From Microbotryomycetes sp. JL201 (Eukaryota > Basidiomycota > Microbotryomycetes): DNA of 64,000 bases. Positions 3,887-26,533 of the stretch are shown one piece after another. The translations under genes were made by a program, and so were the position numbers. Location: contig JAQYUZ010000037.1 of NCBI GenBank assembly GCA_033819885.1, positions 62,001 through 126,000 on the forward strand, in the 5' to 3' direction. Numbering within the stretch: position 1 is the stretch's first letter; the number at the start of each line of letters is the position of its first letter. Below the pieces are notes generated by a model. The model searched no databases and was not told the origin of the DNA. It saw nothing but the letters and a program-made list of their open reading frames with translations.

Positions 3887-6800
3887 TTACTTCTTTGCCA
3901 TGCTGTAAGGAAAGTATCAAACGTGAGCTTTCACAGATACGTCACCAATGTACGGACAAAAGTACAACGTACCCTGCGATCTTGGGCGGCGTCGCTCCTG
4001 CCGCAGCCTTCTTGACCGCACGCAACTGCTTGCCATCAACTTCCTCGTCCGATTCAGTATCGGGTTCTCGAACGGCTCCCGGCACTGAACTCGACAAGAA
4101 CCTGAGCGTTCTCAACCTTCTTCGTTCCTCTCGCTCCTTCATTTGTTTCCTAGTCATCTTTTTCCTACCCTTGGCAGCCTTGAACTGCAACTCTTGTTCG
4201 GCGCCAGCAATCGTAGCCGCAGCACGAGCTTCGTCGCCCGAACCAGCAGGAGTCGACACAGCTGGCGTACTCGCGCCAGGCGTGCCAGCAGGTGTCACTC
4301 CAGCAGGTGTCGCCAATGCAGGAGTACCTGCAGGCGTTCCTCTGATCGAGTTCGGGTTGGAAGACTCGAACGCATCGTCGGCAACGGCCGCTTTGCCCTT
4401 GTGGGTCAACTCGCCATTCTCAACATTCCAAATTTCTGGACACAAGGCGCCGATAAACTCTTGCGAGTGAGAGATGCACAAAAAGGCGCCAGTCCACTCT
4501 TTGATGCCGACGGCGAGACCGCCGAGCGCATCACGGTCCAAAAAGTTGGTCGGCTCGTCTTTGAAACGTTGACCAATCGTCGTCGTCAGCCACTAAATCG
4601 CAAAGCCAATGTGAATATACCAGGCCATGCTTACCAAGAATCAACATCTGAGGCTTGCTCCACATGGCGGCAGCGATGACGACCTTTACTTTTTGTCCGC
4701 CGGACAAGCTGTCAAATTGCGAGGTTTAGCCCTGATTTTCTCAGAAATAGATAACCAGGCCTGTAAAAGTTCTTACCCTTTCATCTCGTTGTATTCGGCG
4801 ATGTCACCGTCCAATCCGACGTCCTCGAGATGTTTGCGAACGAGCTTGCCGCTCATCTCGCGCGAACCGGCACCTTCTCGCGATGCTTCAAAATCGTCAA
4901 ATTCTTGCACGAGTTTACTGAAACCGAGCTCCAACAGCCTCTCGCGAGGGATGAATGTGTTGAACTACGGTTCAGACAGTGTCAGTTTACCGTCTCCTCG
5001 GTACATCAACAACGATTGTCGTAATACGAACCTTGTGAAGCATGCCTTGCCACTTGATTTCGTACGTGTAAGATTTTTTCAATTTTTGACGGCCGACAAT
5101 TCGCTCGAGGTACCTGCTCGAGCCGTCACTGCCCGTAAAAGGTTTCTTGAGCAACTCTTGCTCTTCAGGTGTCAACGCTCGTGTCGCCTTGTGAGCCTGC
5201 TCCTTGTCGACACCTTCTTGGTAACGCCACATGATATATTGAACTGCAGTCTTTTCCAAATGCTCCTCAATGTGATGGAAAGCGTGTTGTGCGACGTAGG
5301 CGATGCGCAAATTGGGATGCTTCTCGACCTTGCCAGAGTCGGGCAGTGTCTCGCCCGTCAAGAGCTTGATGAGCGTCGACTTGCCTGCACCATTGGGACC
5401 AACTGGTTCGGAAAGACAGGTAATGATCAGTAATGTCAGGATCGAAAAGTGAGGATCTTGAAGCTCACCGATGCCGACTCGAGACGAGAGCGAAACAGCA
5501 ACCGACACATTCTTAAGCTGAGGCTTTGTTTGGCCAGGATACGTGAAAGTACAGTTGGACATTTTGAGAATCGTCTTGGTGGCTGATCTGACACCCATGA
5601 GCGAGCCTGGCGCCGGGAACGTGAACTTGACGACGGAAGCCGACAGCGTGTAATATGTCTTGGCAGCAGGGTACTTTTCGACGAACTTGGCGAGATTGCC
5701 TTGATAGTAGTGAAGTTGCTTCTTTTGATAATGAATGATGTTTGTGCAGACGGCGTCCAAAAATCCAGAGTCGTGAGAGATGATCATGCAGGTAATGTGG
5801 CTTTGGGCATTCAGATCTGTGTGGGAGCGGACCATCAGTCATTTTCTGCATACGGGAGATGATGGTCAACTTGCAGTCTTGAAGCCAGGCAACGGATTGC
5901 ACATCCAAATGATTGGTCGGCTCATCCAACAAAAGCAAGTCGACCTTCATGAGCATGGCTCGGCAGAGCGCGACGCGCATCTTCCATCCACCAGACAACG
6001 AGTTGATCGCCTTATCCTGTCGCTCGGCGTCGAAACCTAGTTCCGACAATGTTGCTCGAATTTCCGTCTCGTCGGCCTTGATGCGCGGCTCTTCGATCAT
6101 GAGTTGCGCTACCGTGATGCCCGACTCATCGCCATCAATGTCGTGTTCAACGTATGCTGCCTTGAGGTCCTCGGGAAAGTTTTCAATCTGTTTACGGTTG
6201 ATGGCCTTGAGCAAGGTGGATTTGCCGCAACCGTTGGCGCCGCAAATGCCGTAGCGGTGCCCGCGACGGAGCTTTAAGGTCGCATAATTAAGGAGCAACA
6301 GGCCACCGTACGCCAACGAGAACGGCAGATCGACGACAATTTCGCCCTCCTCGTCGTCAAAGTCGGCATCGTCAACTTTTTGACGCGATTTGTCGACGTC
6401 CATCCATCGCTTTTTCAGGTCGGCGGCAATGCCATCGGCGACGGTCTTGTCCATAAAGGTGGACAAGTATGGACCGACATACGTCTCTTTCCACTCTTTG
6501 TCGCCAAATGCTCGCTTCCTGACGAGATGCGACACGGCATATGCAATGTACGCAAGCGACACGTTGGCAAACTCGTCTGGCTTGGAGCCCGTTGCAGTCT
6601 CGACAGAGTTTTGTAGCTCAGTGTAGATTGCCTTTTCGTCTGCAAGCGCCTCTGTAAAGTGATCGACCGCGGGAGTGGCAGCACCTTCGCACGCCGCATC
6701 AACTGCCTGTTTGGCCTCTTCGGCGAACGCCCGGATCTCCGGGAAAGCAGCACCTTCGATAATACGATCGATTCCTGGTGAGACTGCAGCCGCATGCTGC

Positions 6801-9850: not shown

Positions 9851-10789
9851 ATGGGATTCTCTGCTGGTGAGCTTGCCGTGGCCGTCGAGCGATTCGACCC
9901 GAGCGTCATCCAACGCGCGCGCGCCTTCGTCAACACCACACGCCCACGCCCCTCCGCGACAGTTTGCGGCCTTTGTGGTGCAGGTTTGATCACACTCTGT
10001 CGCCAATGGCATGCGATCGCGACGTCGGGCGATGGGTGGCGACTGTTTGGGCTGGCGATCGCAGTTTGTCGTTGACGTCTCGCGTTTTGTTTCCCTCTCC
10101 CGATTGCAGGTGACGCATCAAAGGGCGCTTCCCTCTTCAAGACCAGGTGCGCTCAGTGCCACACCGTCGAGGCTGGCGGAGCCAACAAGGGTGCGTGACA
10201 CGCTCTCATTCCACAAAATCCCCAAGCGACCGCGAGACGGCGCGCATCGACACCGAACGACCGATCTCGTTCGAAGATTGCATTCACATTGCATCTTGCG
10301 CATCGAGTTTGGAGCAGTGTACATAAAGGACATAACGCTGACATTCATCCGATCGTTGTTGTACAGTCGGCCCCAACTTGCACGGCCTCGTGAGTTTACG
10401 CCGAAATGACCGTCTTCGGGAGCGATTCGATACTGACGGCCATCTTTTCCTCAGTTTGGCCGCCAGTCTGGCTCTGTCGAGTCGTTCAACTACACTGAGG
10501 CTAACAAGAAGGCTGCCGTCCACTGGGACGAAAACACCTTGTTCGGTCAGTCTCTGTCGCCGGTCGTCGCCACCGTTTTCTGTACTTGTACTGACTTTTG
10601 CCTGTTGGCAATGTGCAGACTACCTCGAGAACCCCAAGAAGTGTGAGTGCCCTGGCAGTGTGTGAAGGCAACAATCAACTGACTTGGTGGATTGCAGACA
10701 TTCCGGGCACCAAAATGGCTTTCGCAGGCCTCAAGAAGCCGAAGGATCGCAACGATCTGATCTCTTATTTGAAAGACAGCACTGCTTAG
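9851..10789 (+). CDS. CYC1: Cytochrome c
   Basis: Six small exons (9851-9866, 10110-10190, 10367-10389, 10455-10545, 10619-10642, 10698-10789) give 108 residues. The haem-binding motif CAQCH, the GPNLHGLFGR loop, the NYTEANK helix and [12 protein letters not shown], with its axial Met, are all intact. It is the soluble intermembrane-space electron carrier between complexes III and IV. The first exon codes for only MGFSA plus one base, and five introns in a 327-nt coding sequence is a high density. The start is fixed by the exon-1 ATG immediately before a GTGAGC donor. The identification is secure. Confidence 0.97.
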
Positions 10790-11200: not shown

Positions 11201-14200
11201 TCAAGAAGAAGCAAAATCGCACTTCGTGTTTCCATACTTATCTGCGAAGCAATTGCCTACGGCATCCCAGTATGTATCCTTGCAGGCCGAACCCACGACG
11301 GCGCCTTGCACGGAGCAGCCTCCGAGACCCCACACCCACGTCGGCAGCCACAGCTGACTGTAAACAGTGTCNNNNNNNNNNNNNNNNNNNNNNNNNNNNN
11401 NNNNNNNNNNNNNNNNNNNNNNNNNNNNNNNNNNNNNNNNNNNNNNNNNNNNNNNNNNNNNNNNNNNNNNNCCAGCATCGCACGTGCACAGGCCCGTCGT
11501 CGAGTTCACTGTCAGCTTGTCGACGCAGGTGAGAGACTTGTCTGCGTCACAAGTGACTGCAGAGGAATCCTTAGCGGCGCAATTGAAGCATTGATCGCCT
11601 GATTGAGACTGTGTGCACAGCCCTAAGCACGATTGATGATCGTCAGAGCGGACAGTTCCATTCGAGCATGTCGCGATTCCGTCGCGAGTGCATGTAGAAG
11701 CGTTCGGGAAACGAGCACTACAGGCTTTGCACTGCGCGTCTGTGCCTGTCAATGTCGGCAAATCCCGCATCAGCAGCTTTGTACAAAGTCACTCGCGCAT
11801 ATGGATATGCATCTCACCATCCGTAGTCATATACGAGCCTAAGGGACAATCGCACTGATGGTCTTTCAAGACCAGATTGCCAACGCAAGACTTGATACCG
11901 GTAGCGTCGCATTCATTCACCAATGGGCTTGTGCGACAGCCAACGCATTGACCGTCGCCGCCAAGAAGCTGGCCAGAAGGGCATGCGCACGTTTTCGAGT
12001 CGGCCTTGACGAAGCCAGCTTGGCAAGTGCCGACCTCGGTCGCAGTGCAAGTGGCCGAATAAGGAAAGAGCGTTGAGCATTTCGCGCATTGAGCAGCCGT
12101 GGGATCTGTCAGGTTGGTGCTGCGTCAATCGGTTGCTGTTACAAGGCATGCTCGGTCGACGCTGCTCACCGGTCGAGGTTAGATATGTGGAGCTGGGACA
12201 AACACACTTGCCTCCAAATGTGGGAACAGTGCCGATACACTTTGTGGAGCCTTCCGTCAACGAGCACTGAGTCGCAAGCGGATCTTGGTCCGCGCAATTG
12301 TAGCAGACGCCGTATTCATCCGCTGCTTGACTGCTTGTACATCCGCAAGCTGCGCCGGGAACGCATTGGTTCCCACCAGGAAAATCGCATTGCTTGTTTC
12401 CATACTTATCTGCGAAGCAATTGCCTACGGCATCCCAGTATGTATCCTTGCAGGCCGAACCTACGACGGCGCCTTGCACGGAGCAGCCTCCGAGACCCCA
12501 CACCCACGTCGGCAGCCACAGCTGACTGTAAACAGTGTCGGGGGCGGCGCTGGCATCATCACGCAGGCCATTGATGTACTGGATCTCTGTCGCCTTCAAT
12601 CGGTAGCCCCCCGTCCCGAGGGCCACTACAAGGCGGTTCTTGTCCGATGACAGCACCAATCCTGCGTTGATGTCTGGGAAAAGGCTGCTTGCAGCTGCAG
12701 CATACGGCGACTCGCCGTTGCTCGTCACGTTGGTGATTGACGCAGTCGGTTTCAAAATGACCGAGTTTGCTGCAGATATTTTTCAATTTAGCTGTGCAAG
12801 GCTGAGTTTTTGCAGAGGGATTACGGACGCTGTGTGCTCGGTTGCAAAGACGACCAGAACGACAGTTTCGCCATGCAGATCTCTGTGGATCAATGAACCA
12901 GAATTGAGTTGTGAAATCTGACATCGCTGCTGCCGCGGTCAAGCGCACTCCTGCCAAGAGGATCCGTGCCAATTTCGGTACCGATGTTGCACTTTGTCGG
13001 TCCGTTTGCTGTGCAAGTCTCGGACCACCTCCATCGCGACGTGCAAGTAGAACACAGACCTCCGCTCGCTGCATTGCTCGGCACGCGTCAACTTTAAGAA
13101 TGGTATACACGTGCGTCTGTGAACGGAGCTCACAACCTTGGTACGAGCCGCTCGCGCAAATGCACGTCGATGCGGAGCCTGTACCAGACGGCGTGAAGCC
13201 GTTGATGCATCTATCGATAGTGCCGTCGGGTCGACAAGTGAGGGCAAAAGTGTTGAAGGTCCTGCAGGTGACGCATTGGCCGTTTCGGCTAAACTCATCG
13301 AATCGACAGGCTGGACTGCAGCCAGTCGAGTTCCTTTGCTGCCAGCCGGTGTTGCATTCGGTCACGGCGTCGGCAGTGCACGTCTTTGCATTCGGGAACA
13401 GCGTTGAGCATTGTCCACATGTCGCCGCCAACCCTGAACAAGGCAGTGTCAGCGACGAGAATAGTACAATTAAATCACAAATGGCGAACCTGTTCCAATT
13501 TGGTACGAACCAGCATCGCACGTGCACAGGCCCGTCGTCGAGTTCACTGTCAGCTTGTCGACGCAGGTGAGAGACTTGTCTGCGTCGCAAGTGACTGCAG
13601 AGGAATCTCTAGCGACGCAGCTGAAACATTTCCCATCGTTTCCGACAGCCTGGCCTTTAGGGCATAAGCACATTTTTGAATCAACTTTGTCGAACCCCGC
13701 TTGACAAGTGTCGATCTCTGTTGCAGTGCAGGTAGCCGCATGGGGGAAAAGCGTTGTGCAATCTGAGCATCGGGCAGACGCAGGATCTTCCGATTCGATG
13801 TCACGCAAGTCAGAGGCTTTTGTAAGATACGTTTGCCTGTCGTGACTCACCGGTCGAAGTTAAGAATGTCGAGCTAGGGCATCCACATTTGCCTCCGACT
13901 GCCTGAATAGTGCCGATGCACTTTGTTGAGCCTTGGGTGGCCGAGCATTCAGTCGCAAGGGGATCCTGGTCCGTGCAATTATAGCACTGTCCTTCGATAC
14001 TGAGCCCTTGAACGTTCGAGCAAGAACATGTTTGGCTGTCACTGCTCTTCGTGAAGGTAGCAACGCATTCCGTAATCGCATCAGTCGTGCACTTCGCACT
14101 ATTTGCAAACTTTGAGGAGCAAGTTCGGCATGTGGAAGTTAATGCTGAAATAGTCACGAACCTTGTGAGCAATGGAGAAACATTGGTAACGGAGAGCAAA

Positions 14201-15116
14201 GCTCACCGTCGACAAACTGTCCGTCCTGACATATGCATTGTCCGTTGAGGATTGTGAAGGATGTGCTGGTGCAGCCCGTTGCTCCAGAACCGTCGCATGT
14301 CTGGCTGAACGGAAATCTGCTGGCACATTCAAAGCAAGACGAGCCTGCAGCAGAGATGGTGACGGTACATTGTGCATAAGGATTGGGACTTATACGCTGT
14401 ATGCGAGCTCACTGTTTGCTTCAATAAACTGTGACGATGTACAGGCACACATGTTGCCCTTCTGCACGAAACCCGAATTGCAGGCACTGACAGTGGTAGC
14501 ATTGCACTTGAGCGCGTTGATGAACGTTTTGCTACATTCGACGCAGGCGGTCTCTGCATCAGGCGGATCCGTACTATAGTCAGACCATTCGGACAGAATT
14601 TTTGCAAACGTACTATCTGCTGTGAGGTATTGCGTGTCTGAGCAGACTAAGTTTTTCGTACAAACTCGACCGTCTGTTCCAAAGGGTGTTTAGTGGACAG
14701 AAGTTGACAAGGTTACCAGCGAGCACGAACCGGCGGTCCTGGAGCCAGTGTACCCTGGAGGGCACGAGCCCCGACAGCTGTTGTCCGCTTGCACAAGATA
14801 TTGAGTCTTGCATGCAGCGATCTTGGTGAAATTTGTGCATGCCGATGCGTCCTTGTTCTTGAGCTTGCAAGGCACGCATAGCAAGGCTTTCCAGGAGATG
14901 GGGGCAAATGAGGCTCATTCTTGCCGCGAGACATGGCGGACACTCACTGTCTCGAAGTACAGGTGTAGCCTGACAAATCGCCTTCTGCGCTCTCTCGAGC
15001 CAGGAAAAGTCGAGCGCACGCTTGTCGATATTGTGTGCGCGTGTTCCCGTAGGGCTCGCCGCTGCATTTCCGACCAAGCCGCAGAAAGCAGCCAGCGCTG
15101 CCACTGTGAGATGCAT
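11201..15116 (-). CDS. Secreted modular cysteine-rich protein, interrupted by assembly gap
   Basis: Starts MHLTVAALAAFCGLVGNAAA (signal peptide), then NIDKR, a Kex2-type site. Exons, 5' to 3': 15116-14948, 14886-14731, 14673-14413, 14344-14207, 14144-13851, 13786-13490, 13433-13134, 13068-12825, 12769-12170, 12105-11818, 11745 into the N run, then 11371-11201 (stop). Most exons carry a module of the type C..C...F..A..C....C...F followed by a second Cys pair, as in SRFPFSQTC, SSKFANSAKC, TTLFPHAATC, STLFPNAKTC, STLFPYSATC and SARFPNASTC. One non-repeat domain (IDPQRSAWRNC.. to QLWLPTWVWGLGGC) occurs once in full and again, partly, at the C terminus. All ten reconstructed introns are phase 1. 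No GPI or TM segment is seen at the end. A frame change near 12951-12981 needs a very short intron or a sequence error. I do not recognise the family; the modules resemble furin/growth-factor-receptor-type Cys repeats only in spacing. Confidence 0.72.
11220..11371 (-). repeat. Duplicated segment, copy 2 (other copy 12393-12539)
   Basis: About 145 bp almost identical to 12393-12539. A c/t difference is visible at 'gaacc(c/t)acgacgg', plus divergence at the outer end. It codes for the TVYSQLWLPTWVW ... CFADKYGN block. This copy ends soon after with a stop codon, whereas the other continues into further Cys modules. Confidence 0.9.
11372..11471. other. Assembly gap (100 Ns)
   Basis: Exactly 100 undetermined bases inside the cysteine-rich gene. 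Both flanks are near copies of sequence further upstream in the same gene (about 11220-11371 matches 12393-12539; 11472-11590 matches 13511-13630), so the gap sits in a tandem duplication. Its true length is probably not 100. Confidence 0.97.
11472..11590 (-). repeat. Duplicated segment (other copy 13511-13630)
   Basis: About 115 bp nearly identical to 13511-13630, with isolated substitutions increasing away from the gap. It codes for RDSSAVTCDADKSLTC / KDSSAVTCDADKSLTC and TTGLCTCDAG in the two copies. The high identity points to a recent duplication or gene conversion. Confidence 0.9.
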
Positions 15117-19335: not shown

Positions 19336-21162
19336 ATGAGTGCTGTGCGTCGAGGCGTTGCCAGAGCCCAAGACCCAACGTTCACGGCTCAAACTTGCAG
19401 ATCTATTCAATCTATACGTCCCCCAACCAGCGCTTGGCGCAAGACAGCCTCCCTACGCTGCTCGTAACTCCGCACGGTAGACCAGCTCAAGTCTTATGTA
19501 CGCCGGTGCGATCATTGGCCAAACCACGCCTGCTGACATTTGTCACACGATAGATACGTACTTGCATACGAATGGCAACACCGAGAATTATCTGCTGACG
19601 CCGTCAGAGGCGGGCGATGTCGTCGTTGCCAAACTTCAGCCACCTAGCGCTCTGTTGAGCAAGAGCTCATCAAGCGCGAGCTCTCAAGGACCACACATGC
19701 CTTCAAACTCGTCGACAATTCGGTGTGAAGCGTCGCGCAACTTGCGATGGTCAATTCATAATGTCGGACTCCAGGTGCGCTGAGCTCATCTTCCTCGCAG
19801 GCCTTTGCTGACTTTCTTCTTACTTAAACACAGAACCCAATTTATAAAATGATGGTGCCGAATCCTCAAGAGCCTGGCGAAGAGCAGCCTTTGTTCCAGG
19901 TATCAAAGCCGAATCCACACTCGCCGTGGTGGACTTTGTTTTATTTTGCGTATGTGCTCTTTATCGGTCTCGTCTTACACCACGAAATGACCATCTTTGC
20001 CTGCTTAAGCTACGCTGGACATCTGATTCCGCCTGAGCGGATTGAATTTGGCAGGATACAAAAAAACAGTCCCGAGTCCGGAGGCGGCACGCGGGTGACC
20101 ATTTCGGGCCGCACGGAAGCAGAAGCAGCAGTGTGGCGAACCCTTGGCGACAACAACGAAGATATGGTCGAATGGATCGTGATGTGCGCCGCGCTGACCA
20201 TTCTTGATGACGAGATTAAGAAGGAAGCCGGCAAGGGTGGCACTCCGGCCCTCGCGCCTCCATTGATGCCTACTGCTGGCGCACAGCAGTCGCGAACGCC
20301 ATCTCCAGCGAGTTCTACCGGCATGCAAGGGTTTCCCAGCTCGCCAGGCGTACCCCCACGCCAGCAGCCTTCACCTCTTCGCGATATGGGTCATACAGCA
20401 CTGGGCGGCAGTCCGGCCCCGGCGCCTGCTCGTCAGCGTGAGACCTCGGCATCGTCCGCTTCGCGAGTACCGCAGCCGCAGCTGCCACCAGCAAGTCGAC
20501 AGATGCCGCCTCCGCCATTTGGCGCCGGTCAGTCCGTCTTCCAAGAGGCTCTGCCTTCTCCCACCGCTCGAGGCTTCCAGCTGCACGACCAGCCTGTCCC
20601 TCATCCGCCTTCGACAGCTCAATCTCGAGCATCTATTCATCCCGAAATCGCCGGCCAACAAGTGCAGTACCCTGAGATGCAGCGGCCTGAACCAACATAC
20701 GGTTACGAGCATCCGACACAACGGGAGCAGCAGTACCCGCAGCAAACAGCAGTTCCGTCAAGGTCGTGTACAAATTCACCTGCATCGCACAGCGGCTCGA
20801 TGCCAGTTTTGAGACCTGATGCGGACGGATCGCGAGCTGGTTCAAGGCACGCTTCAGCATCACCTTCTCACCAGCAGCAGCATTACGCTCAACAGCAGCA
20901 GTACGCTCAACAGCAGCAGTACGCTCAACAGCAGCAGCATCACGCCAATCAACCCTATTATGAGCCACGGCAGCAGGATCGTGCGCAGCAGGTGTGGCGG
21001 CACCAACCGGAAAACGAACAAATTGCGCCGGAGCAACCTCCTGCCATGTCTCAACAGCAGCAAGCCGCCTTCCTGCAGAGCTTGGTTGCGCCAGCTCGCG
21101 GCTCACATGCCAAATTGCAGAAAGATATTGGCGCGAAGCGCGCCGCAGCTGGTATCCGATAA
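19336..21162 (+). CDS. Uncharacterised fungal protein with conserved core and Gln-rich tail
   Basis: Five exons (19336-19344, 19401-19497, 19554-19774, 19834-19949, 20010-21162) give about 531 residues. The N-terminal core, about 190 residues, reads like a conserved basidiomycete family I cannot name: YTSPNQRLAQDSLPTLLV, NPIYKMMVPNP, PLFQVSKPNPHSPWWTLFYF, GHLIPPERIEFGRIQKN, VWRTLGDNNEDMVEWIV and LTILDDEI. The rest is Pro/Gln/Ser-rich and looks disordered, with YAQQQQ repeats. A weak resemblance to tubby-C-like/phospholipid-binding folds is only an impression. The first exon codes for just MSA. The fourth intron (60 nt) is in frame without a stop, so retention would add 20 mostly hydrophobic residues. 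No function is proposed. Confidence 0.75.
20872..20945 (+). repeat. 18-bp tandem repeat coding YAQQQQ
   Basis: Three perfect copies of TACGCTCAACAGCAGCAG (20884-20937), flanked by degenerate copies, within the Gln-rich tail of the preceding gene. It is likely length-variable between strains. Confidence 0.85.
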
Positions 21163-24921: not shown

Positions 24922-26533
24922 ATGCCTTTGAATCCGAATGCATCTGCCTTCGCCCCGTGAGTTATGCCTGTATGGTCTCAATCGGCCAATGATGCAGAGG
25001 GGCCCGCGCGTCGCTCAACCGATCCGCGTAAACGCTCGCAGTTCATGGTCTGCGCCCTCTGAACCAAGTCCTCCGCCCAACGACAACTCTCCAGCATGCC
25101 GATTGAGTGAGCAGGCGCAAGACCTCGTGCTCGACTTCGTTCGCGAGACGTCCAGCGTTCTCGTAGCGGAGCGAACGTTCGCTGCAATCTGCATCACGAG
25201 TCGACACTGGCTCGAAGCAGGACAACGTGCCTTGTACCGAGCTCCATTGGCTGCAAGACGAGCCACGTGGCCACGTGCGCACGCCCTGCTCAACACTTTG
25301 CGCTCTCGTCTGGGCCTGGCAGCTCAAGTCAAAGATCTACGCATGCTCGGACGCCGTGTTGCAGAACTCGGATATCTCAGCAAGCAGGCCGAGCCTTCGT
25401 TCAACCGCAAGAAGCGCCCTAGTCGCAAGCAACCAAAAGCAGAGAACCTCGAGCTTCGCGGATCAAGATCGGCCTGGGCGCTTGAAGTAATCCGCTCATG
25501 CCCACTTAGCAAGGTGGTCGGTATCGCGCTCGGTACTGCACTCAAGGTACAAGATGTGCTTGACTCGATGGCTCGAAGCGTCGAACACATAGAAGTCGTC
25601 CGCGTCGGCCGGCTCTCTCACGTGACAGCATATGAGGAGGTCAACCAGCTCGTGACATCTCGGCCGTTCAAGTCTGTCGGCTTTTCCAATTTTGACAACG
25701 CCCAATCGGTAGAGCAAGAGGATTCGATACAATTTGTCATGCCCGAAAACGTTCGAGTTGTTCCAACAATTGACGACGTCCTCTTGCACAACTCGTTGCA
25801 AGATGCGCTGCTCAGGTGGAGCATCTTCAAGCAGCCGGCGATCCATGTAAAAAACCTTAGAGTCAATACCAAATCGATCAGTGACGAGATCACAGGCATT
25901 GGAATCATCCGTCGGGTCCTCGAAGGACAAGCAGCGCACCTCGAGACTCTCCAAATCGAAAGCACCTCGCCAGAACACAAACGCAAGGTCTACATCCAAA
26001 CATACGACATGGATTTAAAAGGGTTCATCGACTGTTCCGAACTTGGTGGCGTTCGTTGGCACCTTTTTAGCCGCTTGACGCATGTAGCCCTGCACGGCTT
26101 TCAAGGTTTCGATTCCAAGATGATCGAGAAGATGGTCGGTCAACTCGCTGTCTTAACCAGCTTGTCACTCCAAGATTCGACGTGGACTGACGTTGAAGAT
26201 TTCGACGAGATGTACCATGGACGCTTTCGCACATTGACTCTGCATATCGAGACGCTACATCGTCAAACACCTACCCTCAAGCGATACGACCTTGGAGTGA
26301 TGCCTCTGACGTCTGGTGACCTGATTTACGAAGCGTTGGATGAGCTCGGCACTTCGCTCGACATGCTCATCACCTGTCAACTTGCCAAACAAGGTGGCTT
26401 TCGTGGCGGCCGAGCTTTGCATGATTCCGACTACATGGAGCTCATCATCCGTCAACTCGAAGCAGAAGCGTTTTCGGACGACCTTTGGGAATCTGACCTG
26501 GATGATGACTTGACACTCTTCTACGACTACTGA
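24922..26533 (+). CDS. F-box-like / leucine-rich protein
   Basis: The frame is open from ATG 24938 to TGA 26533 (531 residues). A better model starts at ATG 24922 (MPLNPNASAFAP), splices a GTGAGT intron (24957-25041) and continues SWSAPSEPSPPP.., about 508 residues. Near residues 30-75 lies an F-box-like helix set: LSEQAQDLVLDFV, TFAAICITSRHWLEAGQRALYR. The rest has scattered Leu-rich segments (LTSLSLQDSTW, HIETLQIE-type spacing) and an acidic end, DLWESDLDDDLTLF. This looks like a fungal F-box/LRR adaptor of an SCF ubiquitin ligase, but no close relative is recognised. The function is inferred from the fold pattern only. Confidence 0.6.

Follow-up and report, generated by a model that had tools for sequence, protein, structure and literature searches.

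Symmetric phase 1-1 exons in a family of cysteine-rich, probably secreted modular proteins of a fungus

Can a fungal gene for an exported protein be assembled from symmetric 1-1 exons, the modules bounded on both sides by phase-1 introns that are a hallmark of animal extracellular proteins, such as those with EGF and laminin-EGF repeats? A cysteine-rich gene of Microbotryomycetes sp. JL201 raises this question. It lies on contig C31, one of the 92 contigs that make up the 17.15-Mb genome; of C31 we analysed bases 62001-126000 (the window, 64,000 nucleotides; window positions count from its first base). In the parts consulted, a 2021 review describes practically no evidence of exon-shuffled modular proteins outside animals (PMC8001218), and its section 2.3.1 gives as criteria for class 1-1 that exon and domain boundaries match, that flanking introns share a phase and that phase usage is nonrandom. 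The consulted part of an earlier survey reports that a phase-1 excess was undetectable in fungal secreted proteins, the intron-bearing ones being too rare for statistics (PMC1626468).

The gene runs on the minus strand from a start ATG at 15116 to a stop codon at 11201 (Table 1). A small splice and coding model was trained on the window and four paralogue stretches; it recovered donors of the form GT[A/G]AGT as well as CTGAC branch points. The gene was then curated manually. Between the ATG and a 100-N gap, 12 introns of 56-72 nt can be placed, and all 12 are predicted in phase 1. Upstream of the gap the spliced frame, curated by eye, is open for 963 codons and includes 100 cysteines. The first-pass annotation had counted ten introns, every one in phase 1. 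The uniform phase stands, and the count is now twelve.

Table 1. Features of the cysteine-rich gene, in window positions.
Feature	Position	Strand	Basis or remark
Exon 1: likely signal peptide (by eye), KR (Kex2-type) site 15018-15023, N-terminal segment DFSWLERAQKAIC	14948..15116	-	segment conserved in C18, C45, C20_2
Exon 2, symmetric 1-1, VPC/RGSCPPGY segment	14731..14886	-	C45 and C20_2 introns co-positioned
Exon 3, symmetric 1-1, 20 aa	14614..14673	-	curated model, paralogue comparison
Exon 4, symmetric 1-1, single 6-Cys repeat	14413..14553	-	curated model, repeat alignment
Exon 5, symmetric 1-1, single 6-Cys repeat	14207..14344	-	curated model, repeat alignment
Exon 6, symmetric 1-1, two-repeat module F1	13851..14144	-	curated model, tree
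Exon 7, symmetric 1-1, two-repeat module F2, donor possibly 13510	13490..13786	-	AlphaFold2 pLDDT 85
Exon 8, symmetric 1-1, two-repeat module F3, irregular first repeat	13134..13433	-	tree partner C18_M4
Exon 9, symmetric 1-1, shortened single repeat	12949..13068	-	C18 counterpart
Exon 10, symmetric 1-1, 18 aa linker	12829..12882	-	C18 counterpart
Exon 11, symmetric 1-1: C-terminal-type domain copy 1 (about 12769-12378), partly lost repeat, one full repeat (F4)	12170..12769	-	
Exon 12, symmetric 1-1, two-repeat module F5	11818..12105	-	curated model, tree
Exon 13, gap-cut, module F6, irregular first repeat	11472..11745	-	11472-11592 94% identical to 13510-13630
100-N stretch, read as assembly gap inside near-identical repeats	11372..11471	.	
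C-terminal domain copy 2 (end part) and stop codon	11201..11371	-	11210-11371 97% identical to 12378-12539

This phase usage differs from that of the surrounding genes. Twelve other predicted genes in the window, two of them intronless, contain 66 introns (predictions as well) that fall 25/19/22 into phases 0/1/2; the subset with strict motifs (29 introns) falls 11/10/8. Against the control rate of 19/66, twelve phase-1 introns out of twelve give a nominal P of about 3e-7 when introns are treated as independent, a value that exaggerates the significance, since each exon copy would bring a copied intron with it. Such copying of exons with their introns is the finding itself.

We identified paralogues on contigs C18, C45 and C7 and three on C20 by searching the genome with module, N-terminal and C-terminal pieces. 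An additional related place on C20 (154518-154863) was seen as a search match, and the family comprises at least eight loci including the window gene, all compared within one genome. The seven gene models contain 58 introns placed with confidence, and 56 of these are in phase 1 (window 12/12, C45 8/8, C7 8/8, C18 8/9, C20_2 4/4, C20_1 11/12, C20_3 5/5). Both exceptions are in phase 0, one in C18 ahead of the C-terminal domain (3270-3186) and one late in C20_1 (6115-6195). One C18 intron was placed at only 38 nt, which makes its donor doubtful. For C20_1, two predictions starting at 1133 and at 2676 were handled as one gene, and two regions of it stand outside the tally: slots at 1999-2682, whose single posteriors are 0.28-0.54 and whose phases vary, and the part beyond 6300 with its three predicted introns (phases 2, 0, 2), where the local sequence is not Cys-rich and was taken as a neighbouring gene. 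Also excluded is a predicted phase-0 first intron of C20_3, where exon 2 shifts frame. A phase-0 intron that the GHMM proposed in C45 was rejected; the frame of the repeat is a different one, and both surrounding introns are in phase 1.

Exon number is unequal between paralogues. A single exon count fixed among relatives had been named at first pass as grounds for abandoning the idea of module gain, and within this genome the counts differ. The proposed export signal is a likely signal peptide, judged by eye, with a KR site after it; KR recurs in C18 (DKR), C45 (DKR), C20_2 (EKR), C7 (AKR) and C20_3 (EKR), and is absent from C20_1.

Other features of the paralogues were recorded alongside. Two predicted family introns are of the GC-AG type, both in phase 1, at about 3353-3296 on the minus strand of L028 (C7:228001-236000) and at 3542-3609 of L029; their donors are GCGAGT and GCAAGT, and C7 has one GC-donor intron among its eight. 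In the C20 cluster (L042, C20:119001-129000, about 1858-2827 and 5031-6743) and at C20:154518-154863, the N-terminal exons of the family are joined to another type of cysteine module, CQxCPxNAxCNGG. The second exon of C20_3 shifts the frame, and C20_2 reaches a stop where C20_3 stays open, so that one or the other may be a pseudogene or contain a sequence error.

The repeat unit encoded by these exons is about 44 residues long with six cysteines. Eighteen aligned repeats share the six cysteines (first row C-x2-C-x9-C-x7-C-x11-C-x-C), an invariance partly due to selection, since repeats were picked by fit to the six-cysteine pattern and irregular ones omitted. Exons 4 and 5 of the window gene hold one repeat each and exons 6, 7, 8, 12 and 13 two each; in three paralogues one 1-1 exon typically corresponds to one two-repeat module. 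In the window gene, C45, C7 and C18 together, 30 of 37 introns lie 1-6 aa ahead of a CxxC motif, where 3.7 would be expected and none of 100000 simulations reached this number, and in the window gene 3 of 12 are not directly ahead of one. In the window gene, C18 and C45, module exons have their first matched repeat 3-6 residues past the intron, the exceptions being irregular first repeats and spots where the automatic model was later corrected. No intron precedes the second repeats of two-repeat exons in these three genes. Exon and module thus mostly coincide, as the first-pass description of symmetric 1-1 exons with one or two Cys repeats had proposed. The match is looser in the distant C20_1, where four of eight matched repeats in the long part lie 88-181 residues from the last intron, in multi-repeat exons. 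Set beside the consulted part of section 2.3.1 of the review (PMC8001218), domain and exon boundaries agree in four genes, with C20_1 outside that count, and flanking introns share one phase with nonrandom usage (12/12 and 56/58 versus 19/66).

The 3' end of the window gene calls for caution. Its last 171 bp (11201-11371) lie beyond the 100-N gap, and the flanks of the gap are near-identical to 13510-13630 (94%) and 12378-12539 (97%), so the 3' end and the number of modules are uncertain. The C18 paralogue (L014, C18:40001-48000) also has a 100-N stretch within near-identical modules, and true module numbers in both genes may therefore exceed the assembled ones. A C-terminal domain of about 130 aa occurs at 12769-12378 and 11371-11204 of the window and at C18:42808-43194; matches to it in this genome are confined to these two genes. 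It has no Pfam match, and AlphaFold2 gave no usable model (pLDDT 35, two-sequence input). Copy 1 is 45% identical to the C18 C-terminus and is joined in frame to further Cys modules. The end of the domain is present twice, in mid-gene and ahead of the stop (97% over 162 nt), and a larger block of modules plus C-terminal domain appears to have been duplicated. New relative to the first reading are the gap in the assembly, the second copy of the C-terminal domain and membership in a gene family.

A 100-N gap between copies that are 94-97% identical, with a similar gap in C18, could mean that assembly created the last third of the window gene, at its 3' end, from repeats collapsed or misjoined at the gap, and that the real gene stops after one C-terminal domain. 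We regard this as unlikely, although it merits some weight. The frame remains open from copy 1 on through modules with normal phase-1 introns, and F5 is only 48% identical to F2. The phase pattern is already present in the ten introns upstream of copy 1, and the C45, C7 and C20_1 stretches, which are free of any N, show it too.

Evidence that exons were copied as units comes from two paralogues. In C18, two neighbouring modules align without gaps for 277 nt at 87% identity; the offset between them, 354 nt, is precisely the length of an exon (297) and an intron (57) together. In C20_3, two exons align without gaps for 113 nt at 83% identity, and here too the offset, 268 nt, is the exact sum of exon (210) and intron (58). 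Within the window gene, 338 nt comprising intron 6 and its flanks are 72% identical to the stretch around intron 11. Tandem exon duplication, suspected from the window gene at first pass, is borne out by the exact offsets, which also provide the multiplication of modules as exon units that the consulted part of the review asks of class 1-1 (PMC8001218).

Similarity between introns was dropped as proof of copying. Among six chosen pairs only C18 stood out; shuffled introns reached the observed score in 4 of 500 cases for C18, 104 of 500 for the window gene and 61 of 500 for C20_3, and in a comparison of all 66 pairs of window introns only two passed z 2.5. Unlike paired introns are expected if short introns drift fast, yet this falls short of proof. 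Introns that are mostly unlike between modules would also fit repeated, independent phase-1 insertion into the small-residue-rich linkers between repeats, with no duplication of exon units; two sources, in the parts consulted, propose such insertion for secreted proteins, at linker Gly codons and signal-peptide boundaries (PMC8001218, PMC1626468). This account is quite improbable given the exact offsets in C18 and C20_3 and the intronless second repeats of two-repeat exons in the window gene, C18 and C45. Moreover, an AG/G exon junction occurs at only 1 of 12 introns, and at 0 of 12 if intron 7 uses the donor at 13510. Tandem duplication of 1-1 exons in a fungus is well supported, as seen within one family.

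Because the phases are predicted from genomic sequence, we resampled the gene structure with a coding model built from the other window genes and the paralogues and excluding the window gene; the paralogue models used for training had originally been found with a model that included it. Each slot of the window gene carried a phase-1 intron in 801-1000 of 1000 sampled parses. The weakest slot, intron 3, was absent in 197 of 1000 samples and was skipped in one Viterbi run; its 60 nt are open in frame, and its position is shared with introns in C45, C18 and C20_2. Intron 4 appeared in phase 2 in 80 samples and in phase 0 in 5, and intron 9 in phase 0 in 48, each of 1000. Intron 7 has two candidate donors, 13510 and 13489, and is in phase 1 either way. 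Intron 2 is supported despite its weak GTTCGT donor, as the N-terminal introns are co-positioned in the window gene, C45 and C20_2. That predicted splice sites were misread, and that by-eye choice of frames produced the uniform phase, has very little probability: some introns have weak donors (GTTCGT, GTCCGT), intron 3 can be retained without breaking the frame, and an early model without family coding statistics (unused for our verdict) gave phase-0 and phase-2 introns inside modules, but the resampling left the window gene out of the coding model and several intron positions recur in paralogues.

A tree of twelve modules bears on when the modules arose. Module F1 of the window gene pairs with C45_m1 (95/97) and F3 with C18_M4 (97/94), the two starred branches among nine inner ones; C18_M1 and C18_M2 pair within their own gene (90/86). 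Because their partners are in C45 and C18, F1 and F3 were already distinct before gene duplication. Some modules are thus older than the gene duplications, and others, near-identical within a gene, look recent. The first-pass suggestion that module gain is both old and continuing agrees with this tree and with the near-identical modules.

Known domain families offer few parallels in sequence. No Pfam family scored above its cut-off on the pieces scanned (seven at E <= 1, three at E <= 10), and on the same pieces the Furin-like and growth-factor-receptor Cys-rich families gave no match. EGF_laminin reached 10.1 bits against a cut-off of 21, and cEGF 17.5 and 20.7 bits against 26.6. A PDB sequence search with the repeat alignment returned weak matches only (best E 0.1). 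The distant C20_1 paralogue weakly matched DUF5874 (Pfam accession PF19202) in three stretches (E 1.4e-4), a candidate dropped because its 22.6 bits fall below the 27.1 cut-off; searching this genome with DUF5874 gave no match but none anywhere else either, so absence cannot be deduced. The Fungal_trans domain has 36 matches in this genome, 32 of them above the cut-off, and none in 14 control genomes, those of them that are named being bacteria; on these matches the genome reads as fungal.

An AlphaFold2 model of module F2 (pLDDT 85) has R-spondin Fu1-Fu2 complexes or crystals as its first 12 Foldseek matches, followed by insulin receptor and EGFR chains. The resemblance of the predicted module to R-spondin furin-like repeats and to laminin-EGF is weak. 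For laminin-type EGF repeats (perlecan, laminin gamma1), the structural Z is too low to argue for kinship with the module. In the consulted part of the review, metazoan class 1-1 extracellular modules coincide with exons and have phase-1 introns on both sides (PMC8001218), as in the window family; here, however, the host is a fungus, the EGF-type Pfam models stay below their cut-offs and the pattern is known from one family only.

We conclude that the gene likely belongs to a fungal family of cysteine-rich modular proteins, probably secreted, which grew by duplication of 1-1 exons. Intron phases, introns at module boundaries, exon-plus-intron offsets in two paralogues and unequal exon counts are read from the sequence. 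The ancestral unit would have been the six-cysteine repeat of about 44 residues, on one exon between phase-1 introns, and a two-repeat module (about 97 aa) would then have become a single 1-1 exon. By a mechanism that we infer, unequal recombination in introns, or copying of an exon with its intron, would gain or lose whole modules, and frame is kept because nearly all flanking introns are in phase 1. Distinct modules would have come first and the separation of paralogues later, with near-identical modules added recently within single genes. From the by-eye signal peptide and the KR site we tentatively infer that the product, rich in disulfides, may serve as a scaffold or binding protein outside the cell or in association with the cell wall. 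A broader proposal, to which we give somewhat less than even credence, is that a fungus independently evolved class 1-1 exon shuffling in secreted modules of the furin-like-repeat type, still active, with gain by recombination in phase-1 introns and mixing of modules between paralogues behind shared N-terminal exons. The distribution of the C-terminal domain, and the pairing of N-terminal exons with the other module type in C20_2 and C20_3, could instead reflect divergence within one family. The family shows the exon/module match, symmetry and duplication expected of class 1-1, known here within this family alone.

The window also contains a cytochrome c gene with introns on the plus strand (10076-10789), downstream of the cysteine-rich gene. 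One exon matches Pfam Cytochrom_C and another matches PDB cytochrome c structures, the best being entries for iso-1, the yeast name for cytochrome c, which also fits a fungal genome. Two predicted intronless genes (19852-21162, 436 aa; 24938-26533, 531 aa) have no Pfam match at E 0.001.

Among the matches listed in our literature search, which covered titles and abstract openings and left subscription journals mostly uncovered, we found no description of this family or of class 1-1 exon modules in a fungus. Exon-by-exon building from 1-1 units, until now mainly described in animals, appears in a fungal cysteine-rich family whose modules are apparently still duplicating. Its small number of paralogues, its short introns and its recent exon copies make the family a compact system for the origin of extracellular 1-1 Cys exons, for which insertion of introns into linkers, selection on frame safety and descent from one ancestral intron are candidates.
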